From a virus: 42,609 nt of DNA. Position 1 is the first letter of the stretch. Every line of letters starts with the position of its first letter. The DNA lies in the IMG/VR virus record IMGVR_UViG_3300032080_000010, positions 1 through 42,609 of that record; one strand, given 5' to 3'. The notes under the pieces were generated by a model. That model had not been told where the DNA came from, searched no databases, and saw only the letters and a list, made by a program, of their open reading frames with translations. The position numbers and the translations under genes are program-made. Shown piece by piece: positions 18,012 to 33,325 of the stretch.

Positions 18012-19982
18012 TTAAAACTCAATCTGTAGCAAGCCGCCGGTTGCGGGGCCAGTTGTTATAGTTCCACCGCCCGAAGCGACGCCCCCCGGTGCGCCTCCGT
18101 ATAATCCGCCTGCCGTTCCCAGTACCGTGGACACGGCCTGCGATGCGGAACCCGAACCGCCAGCGAAAACGCCTGCCGCCACGCCATTGGGATTCCCTTC
18201 CACCAGGCCGCCGCCGCCGGCCCCGGCATTCGCGCTCACAGTGCCCGCCGTGGGGCCTCCTGCGGTGGCGTTCATGATAGTGGTGGCTTCGCCCAGCACC
18301 GCCACGGCGGTGGATTGCAGGCCGCCGAAGTTAAGGCCGCCAAGGCCGGTAGTGGTGCCCGTGGTCACTGCTGCCGCCGCACCGCCCGCGCCACCTCCGC
18401 CGCTCGCGGTATGTACAGCGCTGCTGATGTCCCCGCCATTGCCGCCCACGCCGGCCCCGCCACTGGCTTTGCTCTGCGATGTCGCCACAGAATCTGACGA
18501 CGTAATATTGCCGCCACGGCGCCCAATGCCCTGAATACCGACAGAACCGCCGCCGGTTGCAACCTGAGCGCCGCCCGTGCCGAGAATTGCGCCGCCGTCG
18601 CCGCCCTGCACATTGATGTCGCCACCGGTGGCCGTGCCCCCGACGCCGCCGGCAAGCGCGCCGTCAGTGCTACTAGCCAATCCACCGCCTCCGCCGTTGG
18701 CGGTCATAGTGATGATTCCGCTGCCCGAAAACGATGTGGAATTGCCCGTAATACCTGCCGTCGTGCCGTTGGTGGAAGTGGTAGCGTTCGATACCGCTGC
18801 TGCTACCACACAGGTGTATGACTGCCCCGCGATCAAGAACCGCATGCCTACGAAGAGGCCGCCCGCGCCTGCGCCTGTCGCGCGCTGCGTAGCGCCTCCG
18901 CGAACGAGGCCGCCACGGCCTGATCCACCGATCCCGGTAATACGGTGCCAGCCAGTTTTGCTGGCGACAAATGCTCCGGATGCGTTGATGCGCCGCGTGT
19001 TCTGGAAAGCGCCATAGAGGGCCGCCATGGCCGTGCCGTCGCCCTTGGTGATAGCGATCTGGAATTTCGTGGTGGTCTCCGCGTAGACGTCAATCTCGTC
19101 CCCCGCAGCGACCGTGTACGAGGTGCCGCTGGCCACGCCGTGGATCACCATGTTGGTGCCGGCCGTCAGCGTGAAGGTGCCGCCGGCCAGGATACGACGG
19201 TGCGCCCCGGCCTGCGGCGCGGCGGTGAATCCGGTGATCGTCGCGGTGCCGGTGACCGTCTCGTAATTGCCCGCGCCGCTCCAGATGTCCATGGTGGTCG
19301 CGCTGGCCACGTCGGCGCCCTTGGCGTCGTTCAGTGCGCCAGTGAGGTTGCCTCCTGACAGGCTACCCGTTGGGCCTTGCGCGCCGCGCTGTCCCGACAG
19401 GCTGATGTTCCAATCGGACACCACCCCGGTGCCAGTGAAGCTGGTCCCCGTGATCGTCAGCGAGGTGCCCGAGTAGGCCGCCACGGTGCCGTAGATCGCA
19501 TTGCCCGAGTTGGTCTGGTCCACCGCTTTCACATCGGCGCCGACGGAGAACTGCTTGCCGGCTTGTGTCACAAATACGAACGTGCCGGTGCCCAGCGTCT
19601 GGTCGGTGGGGCTCGTGGCGATGATCGACGCCGCGCTGTTGGCCGCTGCTGTGGCGCTGGCCGCCGCTGCCGTGGCGCTGGCCGCCGCCTGATCTCGGTA
19701 CGTCAGTGCGGTGTCGCGATACCCCTGCGCGGCGTCGCGCGCGGCTTGGGCGGCGTCGCGGTACGTCAGTGCGGTGTCGCGGTAGCCCATGGCGGATGCC
19801 GCGCTGGCGGCGGCCTCCACCGCGTTGGCGTAGGCGTTGGCGACGATGGCGGCCAGCTGCGTCAGGATGACAGTAGAGAACCACGTTACCCAGGCGTCAA
19901 CCCGATTGGAGAACGTCGCGCGGTCGCCCCGCTGCGGCAAGTCGGCCGGCGGCGGAGTGTAGCCTGGTGGAGTTGTTGGCAT
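18012..19982 (-). CDS. Tail fibre protein with glycine-rich C-terminal domain, 656 aa
   Basis: N-terminal about 50 residues are proline-rich and then helical. About residues 50-115 hold degenerate repeats of the type YRDTALTYRD and SATAAAASATAAANSA, likely a trimeric coiled coil. Then comes a beta-rich shaft with a collagen-like GQRGAQGPTG (about 200-210). The last 300 residues are extremely rich in Gly/Ala/Ser/Thr with many GGGGG and GGAGG runs, resembling the polyglycine-loop tips of phage adhesins such as T-even gp38. This is the best receptor-binding protein candidate. TAATG overlap with the upstream gene. Confidence 0.82.
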   Translation of the reverse strand: MPTTPPGYTPPPADLPQRGDRATFSNRVDAWVTWFSTVILTQLAAIVANAYANAVEAAASAASAMGYRDTALTYRDAAQAARDAAQGYRDTALTYRDQAAASATAAAASATAAANSAASIIATSPTDQTLGTGTFVFVTQAGKQFSVGADVKAVDQTNSGNAIYGTVAAYSGTSLTITGTSFTGTGVVSDWNISLSGQRGAQGPTGSLSGGNLTGALNDAKGADVASATTMDIWSGAGNYETVTGTATITGFTAAPQAGAHRRILAGGTFTLTAGTNMVIHGVASGTSYTVAAGDEIDVYAETTTKFQIAITKGDGTAMAALYGAFQNTRRINASGAFVASKTGWHRITGIGGSGRGGLVRGGATQRATGAGAGGLFVGMRFLIAGQSYTCVVAAAVSNATTSTNGTTAGITGNSTSFSGSGIITMTANGGGGGLASSTDGALAGGVGGTATGGDINVQGGDGGAILGTGGAQVATGGGSVGIQGIGRRGGNITSSDSVATSQSKASGGAGVGGNGGDISSAVHTASGGGGAGGAAAAVTTGTTTGLGGLNFGGLQSTAVAVLGEATTIMNATAGGPTAGTVSANAGAGGGGLVEGNPNGVAAGVFAGGSGSASQAVSTVLGTAGGLYGGAPGGVASGGGTITTGPATGGLLQIEF

Positions 19983-27861: not shown

Positions 27862-28202
27862 GAGCTGAACTCCCGAATGGTGAATTCAATGAACTCACGC
27901 TTGCCTATCTCGGCCGGCCCCGCGCTGATTTGGTGGATGGTGTCCACCTCGTTGTGCAGGATCACCCGCATGTCGGAAGTGACGCCGCGCGTATAGCGCA
28001 TGCGCACGCGAGCGGGCCGCTCGGCCAAGTTCAGCACCAGGCCCTTGGCCTCGGCGTTGCCCGGCAGCGTATCCCACACCTGGGCGGGCACGCGCACGAA
28101 GACGTCCTCCCACGGGCCGGGCTGCGGGCCGTACTCGCCGTCAACGACGACACCGGGTCGCTGGATCGTGATGCGCCGATCGAATTGGCTGCCGCTGATC
28201 AT
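27858..28202 (-). CDS. Head-tail adaptor (SPP1 gp16/HK97 gp9-like), 114 aa
   Basis: The start at 28202 gives MISGSQFDRRITIQRPGVVV, the typical opening of the head-tail adaptor family; longer in-frame starts lie inside the connector gene. GPWEDVFVRVPAQVWDTLPG and VRMRYTRGVTSDMRVIL complete the beta-barrel pattern. ATGA overlaps on both sides. Confidence 0.88.
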   Translation of the reverse strand: MISGSQFDRRITIQRPGVVVDGEYGPQPGPWEDVFVRVPAQVWDTLPGNAEAKGLVLNLAERPARVRMRYTRGVTSDMRVILHNEVDTIHQISAGPAEIGKREFIEFTIREFSS

Positions 28203-28762
28203 TGGTACACCACGTATGGTTGCAGGAGCCAGCAATAGAAGTCCTCTGGCAGCGCATAGGTCTGCGCAGTGGCGACCGCGCTGCGGTGCTCGTAGAAGGC
28301 GTTGATGGCCAGCAGCATCCACTGGCGAATCGGCTCGGGCACGCTGGCTGCGTCTGCATAGCCGGCATGGTACTGGACGACCACGGCGCCGGCCTGCGCG
28401 CGCGTGGTCGGCCACGGGGTGTTGTATGCGGCCGAGATCATCGGCGGGTCCACGAAGCCGTCGACCAGATAAGCCGATCCAGCCAGCGTTTGTTCGGTGC
28501 CGTCGGTGTCGATGTACTTGACGCTGTCCAGCTCGAGTAGCGGCGGCCGGGGCACGCGCAGCGGGCCGCAGAAGCCATCGGCGGCAAAGGCCAGCACCTG
28601 GGGCATCAGCGCGCGATTCAGCCGCTCCTCGGCCATCTGGCGCGCCACGCGGATCATGCGCTCAATATCATCGTCTTCGTCATCGAACACCTGGCGCAGG
28701 TTCAGCTTGGCCTCGGCGAGGGTGATCGGTTCGGACGTCGGCGGTGTGATGACTTTTATCAT
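28199..28762 (-). CDS. Head-tail connector, phiE125 gp8/HK97 gp6-like, 187 aa
   Basis: VITPPTSEPITLAEAKLNLR then DDDIERMIRVARQMAEERLN match the phiE125 gp8 family. PWPTTRAQAGAVVVQYHAGY and PEPIRQWMLLAINAFYEHRS are the expected later segments. These proteins form the ring below the portal. Starts 4 bp after the small membrane protein gene. Confidence 0.9.
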   Translation of the reverse strand: MIKVITPPTSEPITLAEAKLNLRQVFDDEDDDIERMIRVARQMAEERLNRALMPQVLAFAADGFCGPLRVPRPPLLELDSVKYIDTDGTEQTLAGSAYLVDGFVDPPMISAAYNTPWPTTRAQAGAVVVQYHAGYADAASVPEPIRQWMLLAINAFYEHRSAVATAQTYALPEDFYCWLLQPYVVYQ

Positions 28763-28766
28763 GGGC

Positions 28767-29006
28767 TTATTTTACGGCAAGAGGCATTTGCACGCACTCA
28801 TATTTCAGTTGCATGGGGCTATTCAATTTCAGCTCCTTGGCGGCGCCCGGCCGACGGGCATTGGCGTTGCGCTCGCATTCTTCCTTCGTCGGGCCTTGCG
28901 GCCCGAGCGACTCGTAAATACGGACCTCCGCACCAAGGACGTCCTTGCTGACGTATTTCCCGGTGCTCACCAAGAAGTACGAAAGAATGAGCGCGGTCCA
29001 CATCAT
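28767..29006 (-). CDS. Small membrane/exported protein, 79 aa
   Basis: One N-terminal hydrophobic helix (MWTALILSYFLVS) followed by a basic/polar domain with two cysteines (EECERNAN... KYECVQM). Overlaps the SGNH hydrolase gene end by 4 nt (ATGATG). It interrupts the head genes together with the SGNH and SwmB genes and may belong to the same inserted block. Function unknown. Confidence 0.65.
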   Translation of the reverse strand: MMWTALILSYFLVSTGKYVSKDVLGAEVRIYESLGPQGPTKEECERNANARRPGAAKELKLNSPMQLKYECVQMPLAVK

Positions 29007-29785
29007 TTCGCCCTGCGTAACCGGCGCAGAACTTGCGGCGCGGCCGTCGCCATGTACGCGTATCCGGCGTCGCCTGGGTGATACCCGTCATAGAACGCAT
29101 TCAGTTGGTGATACATGTTGCTACCGTACAACGATGCATACGTGTAGTTGCTGGTGTCATACATGTTGGCGAAGGTCGGCAGCGCGGCGATGTCGATGAA
29201 AGCGTCCGCGTAGGTCCGCCACGTGTTGCGCATCAAGATATTGGCCACCTTGAATCCGTTCTCGTTCACGTCGAGCGTGTAGGCGATATTGGCTGCGTCC
29301 GGGCTTTGCGCCTGGCCGGCCGGGATCGTGCTGACCGTGACAATCAGGATCTTGGCACCCTTCGCGGCGGCGGCCGCGCGCAAGTTGTTGCAGTACGTGA
29401 CCCATACGGAATGCGCCAGCGCGCCGTCCGCGCCATTCCCGGTGTTCGTCATCACGGAGCCGATTTCGTTGGTGAATTCGCCGATGATGACCACGTTGGT
29501 TTTGGTCGTGCTGAGCAGATTCACCAATGACGCCATGGTGTTGACCATGCTGGTGTAGCCCGGCTTCACCGAGGCGATCGTCTGACCGCCAATGCCTTGG
29601 TTGTTGACCGTGATGCCGGCCGACAAAAGCGGATCGACCTGTTCGATCAGCTTCACCCAGCATTTCGTCAGCCGGTCGGTGCTGCCCGTTCCATAGATGA
29701 TCGAATTCCCCGCCGCGATGATGTTCACCGTGGCGGGGTCGAGCTTCAGGAGGGCCGCGCCCCCAAGGATTGGGCCTCCGATCAT
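29003..29785 (-). CDS. SGNH/GDSL-type hydrolase, 260 aa
   Basis: Start at 29785 overlaps the SwmB gene's stop; the in-frame start at 29902 lies inside that gene. Blocks of the SGNH fold are present: NIIAAGNSIIYGTG (Ser28), NNQGIGGQTI (Gly65 region), IGEFTNEIGS (Asn106), and FYDGYHPGDAGYAYMA (Asp233, His236). The family removes acyl groups from carbohydrates or lipids. Its coupling to a surface-type repeat protein within the head/neck genes suggests a virion-borne esterase that trims host polysaccharide. The first residues (MIGGPILGGAALLKL) are short and apolar, not a typical signal. Confidence 0.88.
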   Translation of the reverse strand: MIGGPILGGAALLKLDPATVNIIAAGNSIIYGTGSTDRLTKCWVKLIEQVDPLLSAGITVNNQGIGGQTIASVKPGYTSMVNTMASLVNLLSTTKTNVVIIGEFTNEIGSVMTNTGNGADGALAHSVWVTYCNNLRAAAAAKGAKILIVTVSTIPAGQAQSPDAANIAYTLDVNENGFKVANILMRNTWRTYADAFIDIAALPTFANMYDTSNYTYASLYGSNMYHQLNAFYDGYHPGDAGYAYMATAAPQVLRRLRRAK

Positions 29786-31857
29786 GCCCACGCCCCGGAG
29801 TACCGAGTATCCGCGCAGACCCGTGCGCTTGTTTGCGCCGAGAAGGTGCCCCACAGCTTGCCGGTGCTGCCGCTGGTGATCGGGGTGGCAATGGTGATCC
29901 ACGTGTTCAGGTCGGCGGCGCGCGCCACCTCGGCGATTACTGCACCGCCAGCGCGGCGCAGGCGCACCACGTCACCGGCTGCGGCCAGTATCGCACTGGT
30001 CTGGTTCGCGCCGCTACCCGTCTTAGTCACGTACGCGCCACCGGCAGCCCCTGGGGTCTGCACCATGCAATCCCACGACGAGAATACCGAATTGGCCGGT
30101 TTCGTGGCGCCGGTTTTCACCCCCGCAACCATGACGCCGGAGGCCGTGTCGCCCGCGTAGGCGTGCGAGAACGAGCCGTCTTGGCCCGCCGGCAGACCTA
30201 TGTCGCTGACCGGGCTGGACGCCGCGCCGAAAACGTTGTTGACCACGTTGCCGTTCGAGGTGTACGTGTATTCGCCCGCGCCGCCGATCGTCTCGGCGTA
30301 GTAGCTTGGGCTGTCGGTGAGAACAGCGCTGAACCGCAGCGGCGTGGACCCCGTTGCCGCCGTGTTGTTCGTGACGCTGTACGCGCTCAGGTTGGCGGCG
30401 GGGTTGCCCGCAGTGTCGCGGATCGGCGTCGCACCGGCTGTGTAGCTCAGCGCCAGAGTCTGCCCGTTCGTCACCGGTGCGGCGAACGTGAGCGTTACCG
30501 TGGTGCCGGACGCCGTGGCGGCCGTCGGGTTGACCGCAGCCCCGCCGTTGACCACCAACGAGAGCGAGGCCAAGGTCGGGCTGTTGGCCGTCAGCGCCTC
30601 GTTGTACGTCATGACCAGCGACGAGCCGTTCATCGCCGCCGACTGGATTATAGGCGCGGTGGTGTCAGATGCTGGCGTGCTGTTGGTCACGGCGGTGCTG
30701 GTCAGTGACGCGGCGGCGTTGCCGGCGGTGTCGCGGATCGGGTTGGTGCCCGGCGTGTAGCTCAGCGTGGCCGTCTGGCCCTGCGTTGCGGCGACGGCGA
30801 ACGTGAGCGTTACGTTGACGCCGGAGACGACCGCAGCGGTCGGGTTGACGGCGGCCGCGCCGTTCAGCACGTAGTTGAACGACGTGAGCGCCGGCGACGC
30901 CGTGTTGAGCGTCTCGTTGTACGCCATCACCAAAGTGGCGCCGTTGACCGTCGTCGATTGCAGCAGCGGGGCCGTGGTGTCGGTCGCGGCGACGTTGTTG
31001 GTGATCGCGCGGTTGCTGAAGCTCAACACCTGGTTGCCTGCCGCGTCGCGCAGGCCATTCGTGCCCGGCTGGGTGTAGGCGGCGGTGCGCGCCGCTTCAC
31101 CGTTGACGAAGGCGGGCGTGACGGTCACGTTCAGGTTGCTGCCACTGACCGCCAGCGAGGACACGGTGTGTCCGGACACGGTGAAGGCGGATGCCGCCGG
31201 CACCGAGCCGGCCGCCAGGGCTTCGTTGAATACGATGTTGACCACCGTCGGCGTCGCGTTGGCGACTGCTGCCGAGCTGACGGTCGGCGCGGTGGTGTCG
31301 ATGGCGGTGGCGCCCACGGCTACGGTGCCGGACCAATACGCGTCATAGCCGTCGTAGAAGAACTGGATCTGGTTGACGATGCCGGTGCGGTTGTCATACC
31401 CCAGCGATCCGCCCCATTCCTTGAATGCCGAGAAGTCCGGCGTGTTCGTGCCGTTCGCTACCAGGCGCAGATACACCAGCGAGTTGCGCACCGCGCCAGC
31501 CATAACGGTGAAGGCCATCGCGCCGGTCACGTTCTGCTGCGGCATGTAGGCCGAGCCGCCGCTGGTGAGCGGGATGGCGAGTGAGAACGGAATGTCCGAT
31601 GCGCCGCCGCCTGCGGCAGCCACGGCGACACCGTTGGCGTCCGTGAGGCCCACCACGGCGCCGACAGGCGTCTTGCGGACCTTGGCCGACTCGTAGGTGT
31701 CCGGCGGCGCGTAGGCCACATAGGCGATGCCGCCGGTAAGGTCAAGCGACGCGTTCCCCTGCGCCACGAAAAACGCGGCGAGTGCGTCAGGCAGATCACG
31801 GATGGTCTGCGGCGGGCTGCCGTCGTACGTGGCGAGCAGGCGAACGGTCGTAGTCAT
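29782..31857 (-). CDS. Virion-associated protein with three SwmB repeats, 691 aa
   Basis: Residues about 190-490 contain three tandem repeats of about 95 residues opening with DTTAP and containing VFNEAL/YNETL/YNEAL, LSYTPGTNPIRDTAGN-type ends and AVTNN linkers, the SwmB Ig-like pattern. The N-terminal 180 residues and the C-terminal 190 residues (LRFSAVLTDSPSYYAETIGG onward) are separate beta-rich domains. It follows the capsid and a small acidic/basic protein with a 1-nt overlap, so it is probably a capsid or neck decoration/fibre. Ig-like decorations can bind surface polysaccharides; that role is inferred. Confidence 0.85.
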   Translation of the reverse strand: MTTTVRLLATYDGSPPQTIRDLPDALAAFFVAQGNASLDLTGGIAYVAYAPPDTYESAKVRKTPVGAVVGLTDANGVAVAAAGGGASDIPFSLAIPLTSGGSAYMPQQNVTGAMAFTVMAGAVRNSLVYLRLVANGTNTPDFSAFKEWGGSLGYDNRTGIVNQIQFFYDGYDAYWSGTVAVGATAIDTTAPTVSSAAVANATPTVVNIVFNEALAAGSVPAASAFTVSGHTVSSLAVSGSNLNVTVTPAFVNGEAARTAAYTQPGTNGLRDAAGNQVLSFSNRAITNNVAATDTTAPLLQSTTVNGATLVMAYNETLNTASPALTSFNYVLNGAAAVNPTAAVVSGVNVTLTFAVAATQGQTATLSYTPGTNPIRDTAGNAAASLTSTAVTNSTPASDTTAPIIQSAAMNGSSLVMTYNEALTANSPTLASLSLVVNGGAAVNPTAATASGTTVTLTFAAPVTNGQTLALSYTAGATPIRDTAGNPAANLSAYSVTNNTAATGSTPLRFSAVLTDSPSYYAETIGGAGEYTYTSNGNVVNNVFGAASSPVSDIGLPAGQDGSFSHAYAGDTASGVMVAGVKTGATKPANSVFSSWDCMVQTPGAAGGAYVTKTGSGANQTSAILAAAGDVVRLRRAGGAVIAEVARAADLNTWITIATPITSGSTGKLWGTFSAQTSARVCADTRYSGAWA

Positions 31858-32108
31858 TATTTTTTACCCTTGTTGGCTGGCGCTGGTTGCATCTTGTTTT
31901 TGGGCGCGGCGTCCATCTTCTCGCCGCCGACCAGGTCGTCGATGTCGTCCTCGGCTGGTTTGGTTTCTGGTGCGGGGGTGGCGTCTTCCACGTGGCCCAG
32001 TTCCTTGAGCACGTTGATATCGGCCTGCGCTACGTCGTCGCGGATCTCGCCCTCGTGCAGGTGGTAGCGTCCGTGGGACACGCTGTTGATTACTTTTACG
32101 CTTGGCAT
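31857..32108 (-). CDS. Small head-associated protein, 83 aa
   Basis: The start at 32108 follows CAGGAGGGCATT. The first 45 residues (MPSVKVINSVSHGRYHLHEG) are a small domain of the sort found after capsid genes; the rest is disordered, first acidic (DDIDDLVGG) then Lys-rich. TAATG overlap with the SwmB gene. Could be a decoration or anchoring protein for the SwmB fibre. Confidence 0.72.
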   Translation of the reverse strand: MPSVKVINSVSHGRYHLHEGEIRDDVAQADINVLKELGHVEDATPAPETKPAEDDIDDLVGGEKMDAAPKNKMQPAPANKGKK

Positions 32109-32158: not shown

Positions 32159-33325
32159 TTACGGCGCGGTCAGCGCACCCTTCACGAATGCCTCGGGACG
32201 GTACACCGCCAGCGCCAGGCGTTCCTCCGCCATGATGGCGATCAAGTTGTTCACCCAATCGTCCTCGTTCTCCGTGGCAACAATAATTCCCGATTGTTCA
32301 CGGTCGAAAACCTGTGCGCCCATCTTGAAAGCGCCGGTCAGGAAGGTGTTGACGGTCATCGCCAGCGAAGTTACCACCGGGCGGCCCCACAGCGTCGGCG
32401 ACAGCGTGCCCTGCGGATTGCCGATCAGGTATTGGCCGGTCGAATCCTTCAGCAGCTCGATAGCCGCCCAGTTGGTCGGGTGCAGCACCATGCCGGTGGA
32501 AGGCAACAGCGCCAGTTCCGACTGCAGCAGCGCCAGGCGCAGCGTGTCGATGTTGGTGGCAGGGGCCGTCGGGGTGAAAGCGGCGGCGTAGGCGGTGGCC
32601 TGGGTGTAGATACCGTTCAGGTTGTTGGCGGCGCCGGAGCCTTTCAGCAATTGCAGCTCTTCGACGTAGTCCAGGCCGTAGACCAGTTGGCCGTCGATCA
32701 TCGACTGCAGCGCAGGGAAGTCAGCCAGGATCTCGGTAGACGCTTTCATGAAGTGTGCCAGCTTGATCACGTTGGCGGTGGTCAGCGCCATCACCAGGGT
32801 CGATTCTGGCTTGCGGGTGCCCTCGACCACCGGGGCCGCATTGTTGGTGTATCCGGTTTGCTTCATGTAGCTGATGCTGTTCGAGCTGGTGCGGCCCGGG
32901 GTGATCAGATCGCGCACGGTCATCGGGCGCTGCGGCAGCATGATCACGCCTGCTTGGCGGTCGGCCACGATGTTGGCGCCCGACGATACGGTGGTCAGCG
33001 CTTTGGTCTCGAAACGATTCGAGCCGCGCTCGCCGCCGGCCATGCGCTCGGATTTGGCCTTGAAGTCCGCGTTCTCGATGGCGCGGTAGCCCACCGATTT
33101 GGTGGACTGGCTATCCCCGGCGCCACGGCGGGCGGATTTCTGCTCCAGTTCGGTGACCTGGGCCTGCAGCTCGCCCTGCTTGACCAGCAGTTCGTCGACG
33201 GTTTGCTTGACGCCGGCGGACATATCCACGCCTTTTTTGGCTTCGGCCAGGGCTTTTTCGCCGGCCTCGCGCACTTGGTCGGTGATTTTGTCGAGTGCGG
33301 CTTTGATTTGGGTTTCGTCGGACAT
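32159..33325 (-). CDS. Major capsid protein, HK97 fold, 388 aa
   Basis: About residues 1-100 are a charged coiled-coil delta/scaffold domain (LVKQGELQAQVTELEQKSAR). The body shows HK97 features: VADRQAGVIMLPQRPMTVRD, SISYMKQTGYTNNAAPVVEG, HFMKASTEILADFPALQSMI and the C-terminal AEERLALAVYRPEAFVKGAL. Cleavage of the delta domain by the adjacent protease is expected near residues 95-115. AAGGAAATACC precedes the ATG. Confidence 0.96.
   Translation of the reverse strand: MSDETQIKAALDKITDQVREAGEKALAEAKKGVDMSAGVKQTVDELLVKQGELQAQVTELEQKSARRGAGDSQSTKSVGYRAIENADFKAKSERMAGGERGSNRFETKALTTVSSGANIVADRQAGVIMLPQRPMTVRDLITPGRTSSNSISYMKQTGYTNNAAPVVEGTRKPESTLVMALTTANVIKLAHFMKASTEILADFPALQSMIDGQLVYGLDYVEELQLLKGSGAANNLNGIYTQATAYAAAFTPTAPATNIDTLRLALLQSELALLPSTGMVLHPTNWAAIELLKDSTGQYLIGNPQGTLSPTLWGRPVVTSLAMTVNTFLTGAFKMGAQVFDREQSGIIVATENEDDWVNNLIAIMAEERLALAVYRPEAFVKGALTAP

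Follow-up and report, generated by a model that had tools for sequence, protein, structure and literature searches.

Phage enzymes that degrade glycans are usually sought on the tails. A counterpart on the head has been described for HFTV1, in which capsid turrets consist of a base protein (gp30) and a head protein (gp31) with a deacetylase-like domain and a putative carbohydrate-binding domain (PMC12494034). The turrets were proposed to bind and modify host glycans ahead of tail action, and no homologues of the turret head protein (THP) were found in other haloarchaeal viral genomes (PMC12494034). Here we analyzed a gene pair encoding a 691-aa protein with SwmB-type Ig-like repeats and an SGNH hydrolase. 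The pair is located between the capsid gene and the head-tail connector gene of a 42,609-base virus record in IMG/VR (the complete stretch is referred to as the window). The 691-aa protein begins with a short domain, here named docking domain. It belongs to a family, not recognised before, of about 30 loci from uncultured phages, in which this one domain is combined with exchangeable sugar-modifying enzymes. We consider it rather probable that the pair represents the two-chain version of a modular virion appendage, within a family whose genes lie in the head locus of D3/HK97-type siphophages. No description of such an arrangement in bacterial phages was found in the open-licence literature.

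In concept the HFTV1 turret, a capsid-linked two-protein appendage with a glycan deacetylase-like domain, resembles the appendage that the pair is proposed to form. A further shared feature is the polysaccharide deacetylase domain of one docking protein (L171). The systems differ in that HFTV1 is an archaeal virus with a zinc polysaccharide deacetylase instead of an SGNH enzyme, and in that the capsid placement was solved there but is deduced from the genes here. PDB sequence matches included no HFTV1 chain, either with the docking profile (E <= 10) or with the window proteins (E <= 1). An earlier note on this DNA had named no described head module with exactly this pairing. The idea of a head-borne glycan deacetylase is already realised in the solved HFTV1 turret (PMC12494034).

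Several tail-borne and head-borne proteins of bacterial phages are comparable as well. Esterase activity was measured for SGNH receptor-binding proteins (RBPs) of Klebsiella prophages, where SGNH tail fibres are common, and SGNH domains are also present in proteins adjoining RBPs without recognised domains (PMC13123978). Like gp63.1 of E. coli phage G7C, these RBPs carry an SGNH esterase on a modular virion protein and likely deacetylate surface polysaccharide, as proposed for the window. They are tail fibres, whereas the SGNH gene of the window lies between capsid and connector and not in the tail module, and the anchor is a different one. Tailspikes show the same sharp border between a conserved N-terminal anchor and an exchangeable enzyme, but the anchor of the docking family is a beta-beta-alpha domain of ~45 aa linked to the head locus. 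Capsid decoration proteins with Ig-like domains are known from T4 (Hoc) and others. With Hoc-type decoration the window shares Ig-like repeats encoded by a head-locus gene; it adds an enzyme, and its binding to the capsid is presumed.

A family of docking proteins with exchangeable enzymes

Neither the SwmB nor the SGNH protein, searched at full length, yielded relatives in cultured phages or IMG/VR. Two contigs carried capsids 87-92% identical to that of the window, and both possessed the small post-capsid protein and the connector with different large proteins (908 and 712 aa) in between. The three long proteins were alike in the first ~45 residues only (closest pair E about 2e-9), and the 712-aa protein contained a GDSL domain within the same chain (1.3e-9).

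Capsid-profile scans yielded 80 loci each; a related capsid gene and the connector were both recognised in 149 surveyed loci. A profile of the N-terminal domain detected 20 proteins. When all viral contigs were scanned for the docking domain independently of the capsid, 29 loci resulted, each with the domain encoded behind a capsid gene. Taken together, 31 loci contained 32 docking proteins, exclusively in head loci. Judged by their contig names, three docking-positive records (IMGVR_UViG_2846984167, 2898484519 and 2895945552) resemble prophages of isolate genomes. The domain was N-terminal, a capsid gene was located upstream in 32/32 cases and a connector downstream in 28/31 loci, the other three lying near a contig end. 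The only non-N-terminal domain, in the truncated L129, was a start-codon artefact. The window protein matched the family profile at residues 4-44; as it is also a profile seed, independent support for its membership comes from the pairwise similarity mentioned above.

The docking domain was confined to loci with capsids at least 54% identical to that of the window, while connector and tail tube of these loci ranged from about 30% to >80% identity to those of the window. In addition, a genome scan identified one docking member on a contig (L094) of a Novosphingobium metagenome-assembled genome. Among 399 genomes of the same family, 385 of the class and 196 of the genus, only the genome of L094 and one borderline match were found. 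The tail tube of L094 was 94% identical to that of the window, a hint at a sphingomonad host if the contig has been binned correctly.

As a separate observation, L132, L139 and L121 carried terminase, portal and tail tube proteins 63-90% identical to those of the window but capsids of only 54-56% identity. This suggests capsid-gene exchange between otherwise close phages, as judged from the identities.

SGNH cargo was present in 24/32 docking proteins. Nineteen were recognised by a Pfam GDSL match at E <= 0.01, several of these below the Pfam curated cut-off (window, L004, L094, L095, L096, L103, L104, L106, L108, L132, L133, L169, L173, L175, L178, L181, L182, L186 and L187), and five by their motifs by eye (L003, L013, L139, L140 and the truncated L184). 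Other cargo comprised a GH43 domain in L097 (4.6e-8), the polysaccharide deacetylase in L171 (8e-4, below the cut-off), an Asp-box (BNR) open reading frame (ORF) following the docking gene in L189 (0.0027) and beta-helix-like sequence in L121, L109 and L108, with weak Pfam matches for L108 only. L176 appeared deacetylase-like by eye but received no support from Pfam; the sequence of L129 was cut off. PDB sequence searches with the window SGNH and SwmB proteins, L171 and L176 returned nothing useful.

Exchange of the cargo was directly visible in the alignments. L132 and L173 shared 91% identity over residues 1-143 and were unrelated beyond, and L003 and L094 shared 79% over about 299 residues (docking and FN3-like domains) followed by different SGNH domains. 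The N-terminal block of L132 and L173 was also joined to different enzymes in L121, L171, L175, L182 and L013. The SwmB spacer was found in the window member only, the relatives having FN3 or other domains. The SwmB/SGNH pairing, of which the earlier note knew no other described head module, is thus not unique and reduces to a usual cargo, normally on the same chain, combined with a spacer of this one member. In the survey proposed there for SwmB beside SGNH between capsid and connector, SGNH recurred and SwmB did not. The recurrence of docking domain and glycan-acting cargo in 31 loci indicates that binding and deacylating modules in the head locus are no accident of the window genome.

In the window the two proteins are made as separate chains and share no sequence similarity. 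A docking domain is missing from the SGNH protein, and the two might be unrelated neighbours with separate roles. We regard this as very improbable, since their genes overlap by ATGA and since docking and SGNH domains are united in one chain in about 22 relatives (18 by Pfam). Furthermore, split docking and enzyme pairs recur: the enzyme was a separate following ORF in the window, L140 (SGNH-like), L189 (Asp-box), L109 and one gene of L108 (both beta-helix-like).

Gene order and domains in the window

All genes of the locus were orientated in the same direction on the minus strand, in the order terminase, portal, protease, capsid, small protein, 691-aa protein, SGNH hydrolase, 79-aa protein, gp6-like connector, head completion protein, HK97 gp10 and tail genes (Table 1). 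Gene order together with Pfam and PHROG matches bears out the set of genes between capsid and gp6-like connector as initially described. The same holds for their tight packing: a 50-nt gap follows the capsid gene, then overlaps of 1 nt (TAATG, small protein and 691-aa genes), 4 nt (ATGA, 691-aa and SGNH genes) and 4 nt (SGNH and 79-aa genes), and a 4-nt gap precedes the connector. The capsid-connector gap of the window is 3397 bp; in the 149 surveyed loci it was mostly 200-400 bp with one small gene, and exceeded 1.3 kb in a minority.

Table 1. Coordinates of the features in and around the capsid-connector gap of the window
Feature	Position	Strand	Evidence
Major capsid protein (HK97 fold family), upstream landmark	32159..33325	-	Pfam Phage_capsid 3.9e-49; PHROG major head protein 1.1e-73
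Small post-capsid protein, 83 aa, DUF7210-like class, Lys/Asn-rich tail	31857..32108	-	Alignments; weak DUF7210/DUF7302 Pfam matches in homologues
691-aa docking protein: docking domain, unknown domain, three Ig-like units, unknown C-terminal domain	29782..31857	-	
Docking domain, residues 1-47, beta-beta-alpha fold	31717..31857	-	Common to 32 proteins; profile E = 9e-20 for window; AlphaFold2 pLDDT (predicted local distance difference test) 94.5
Three tandem SwmB/Big_5 Ig-like units, about residues 187-490, outer limits by eye	30388..31299	-	PF13205 at 187-278; PF13753 two stretches, one at 398-476
C-terminal domain, about residues 506-691	29782..30342	-	
SGNH/GDSL hydrolase, 260 aa	29003..29785	-	Lipase_GDSL 1.3e-7; alignment of SGNH domains
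79-aa protein, hydrophobic N-terminus, two Cys; may not belong to system	28767..29006	-	
gp6-like head-tail connector, downstream landmark	28199..28762	-	Phage_connect_1 PF05135 1.4e-5; PHROG 442 head-tail adaptor 1.2e-27
Candidate tail fibre in tail module, Ala-rich coiled-coil-like N-half, Gly-rich C-half	18012..19982	-	Translation; assigned by sequence character only

The docking domain is predicted by AlphaFold2 as strand-strand-helix. Among PDB structures only non-significant matches of the fold were obtained, to the class of the ribosomal protein L9 N-terminal fold, and among viral structure models small phage proteins at E 0.05 or worse. The latter included DUF7210 proteins, that is, the class of the small post-capsid protein.

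For the Ig-like part of the 691-aa protein, SWM_repeat (PF13753) matched with 6.6e-20 and 71.6 bits (curated cut-off 27), comprising two single matches of 46.5 and 37.4 bits, and Big_5 (PF13205) with 4.3e-8. The three tandem units supposed at first are therefore present, but two of them are SWM and one is Big_5. For the C-terminal domain, sequence searches of Pfam and PDB returned no match; in the two-chain form this part may hold the enzyme.

The ATGA overlap places the start of the SGNH gene at ATG 29785 (260 aa) and not at the mechanical ORF start 29902. Numbered from this ATG, the residues named in the earlier note (Ser28, Asn106, Asp233 and His236) are correct, and the SGNH blocks are intact: Ser28 (I), Gly64 (II), Asn106 (III) and Asp233-x-x-His236 (V). 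Aligned to nine further SGNH domains encoded at this site, the hydrolase shows G26, G64, N106 and H236 as invariant positions and S28 and D233 as nearly invariant ones. The Lipase_GDSL match is over its Pfam cut-off. The structure model was of low confidence (pLDDT 55.8), with carbohydrate and acetyl-xylan esterases as the best Foldseek PDB matches (1e-4 to 1e-3, template modelling score about 0.4). By analogy with the HFTV1 turrets (PMC12494034) and with the SGNH tail fibres of Klebsiella prophages (PMC13123978), the hydrolase probably removes acyl groups from a host polysaccharide. Sphingomonad exopolysaccharides such as gellan are acylated, and a substrate of this kind would suit the putative esterase. 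Nothing points to mucus, which had also been considered as a glycan source for attachment.

The 79-aa protein, called membrane-type in the earlier note, gave no family match in Pfam or PHROG. Its gene lies beyond the interval 29003-32108 to which the system had been assigned.

A small post-capsid gene of the DUF7210-like class was present in most surveyed loci, with or without cargo. Ahead of its Lys/Asn-rich tail, a DDL-GGEKM-type acidic motif was found in 13/28 docking loci and in 1/68 others (for example window 31857-32108 and L094 7717-7995). The motif may mark a lineage or an interaction site.

Position in the particle and competing readings

In the proposed mechanism, the ~45-residue N-terminal docking domain would plug the protein into the particle, most likely into the capsid shell or the neck. 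Ig-like repeats (SwmB in the window, FN3 in several relatives) would act as a spacer and possibly as an adhesin, and a glycan-acting enzyme, most often an SGNH esterase, would be displayed at the far end. There it would strip acyl groups from the host surface polysaccharide during the approach, ahead of tail engagement. In the window the enzyme would be a separate polypeptide from the overlapping gene, probably bound to the C-terminal domain of the docking protein.

A head-module system for binding and deacylation had been suggested in the earlier note. This is upheld insofar as a docking domain with glycan-acting cargo occurs at the same place in 31 loci and a separate candidate tail fibre exists; the capsid or neck placement is presumed from gene position and linkage. 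The gene of the candidate tail fibre sits after the tape measure gene and a 318-aa gene. Its product had a weak Pfam match to DUF7601 only and no match among the fetched loci. Given this separate candidate, the pair is not necessarily the main receptor-binding protein.

As a tentative proposal, the proteins could form an undescribed class of capsid-shell appendages in bacterial siphophages, in which a common ~45-residue plug fixes many copies of interchangeable esterases, deacetylases, glycosidases or beta-helix enzymes over the head, in a one- or two-chain form. The host surface would then be trimmed by the head and not by the tail. Exchangeable carbohydrate enzymes in the head locus suggest a second place where host-surface specificity evolves, and the docking family accounts for large genes without annotation in the capsid-connector gap. 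The docking domain is small and predicted to be well folded; its binding partner is directly testable, and it may serve as a handle for particle display.

Several results weigh against the appendage reading. The docking domain and the small post-capsid protein aligned over the same segments, but weakly (hhalign E 0.003-0.005, probability 8-11%), so that their homology is only suggestive. Judged by its length, one viral fold match (A2I2Y0 of VP882, 51 aa) would be gp27, whose gene adjoins that of the tail sheath. The fold is thus not diagnostic for the capsid, and its use as a capsid signature was dropped. When the divergence of the docking domain was compared pairwise with that of nine proteins from head and tail, all Spearman coefficients stayed below 0.25; the comparison was uninformative and singled out no partner. 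The docking peptide had no match in cultured phages at E <= 1. Non-structural genes occupy the same gap elsewhere (HNH, methyltransferase and a sialyltransferase-like gene, annotated so in D3), and the gap of a siphophage-like contig (L032 6314-6754) harbours a homologue of the podophage GP4 fibre I protein gp80 (PF23140; 8e-42). The slot accordingly accepts different appendage types; the window proteins themselves showed no Pfam match to the phi29-type head fibre or the GP4 gp80 family.

Part of these results would fit tail-attached side fibres or tailspikes whose genes merely lie in the head locus, with a docking domain that binds the tail or the head-tail connector. The GP4 fibre I homologue at the same site and a fold class that is not head-specific are in line with this, as are the anchor with a swappable enzyme, which is a tailspike and RBP design, and the common SGNH tail fibres of Klebsiella prophages (PMC13123978). 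We nevertheless judge a tail location unlikely. The tail module has a candidate tail fibre gene of its own, and the docking family persists, always in the head locus, in phages whose connector and tail tube share as little as about 30% identity with those of the window.

The gap is an insertion hotspot with non-structural genes, and position alone is therefore no proof of a virion protein. The enzyme might act in the infected cell or lysogen, for instance by changing the host polysaccharide so as to exclude superinfecting phages or to aid release. Such a role is consistent with the HNH, methyltransferase and sialyltransferase-like genes found in the gap of other loci and with the many substrates on which SGNH proteins can act. 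However, a conserved N-terminal anchor, long Ig-like spacers and exchangeable glycan enzymes correspond to the design of a virion appendage, and no obvious signal peptide was seen by eye in the window SGNH or docking protein. Non-structural cargo is thus the more doubtful of these two alternatives, and a virion appendage encoded in the head locus is preferred.

Two further groups of genes in the gap of other loci were classified by eye. L110, L128, L130, L135, L137/L138, L156, L157 and L122 carried genes resembling D3 orf7 (annotated in D3 as sialyltransferase) and methyltransferase-like genes, apparently non-structural cargo. HNH-endonuclease-like genes were located between capsid and small protein in L101, L120, L129, L133, L139, L147, L042 and L048 and may drive exchange at this site. 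Finally, short proteins, basic at the N-terminus and with a single Ig-like domain, were encoded next to the capsid gene in L084 (8018-8395), L088 (9251-9601), L080 (2062-2400) and L048 (10231-10551). These probably represent a different type of head decoration.

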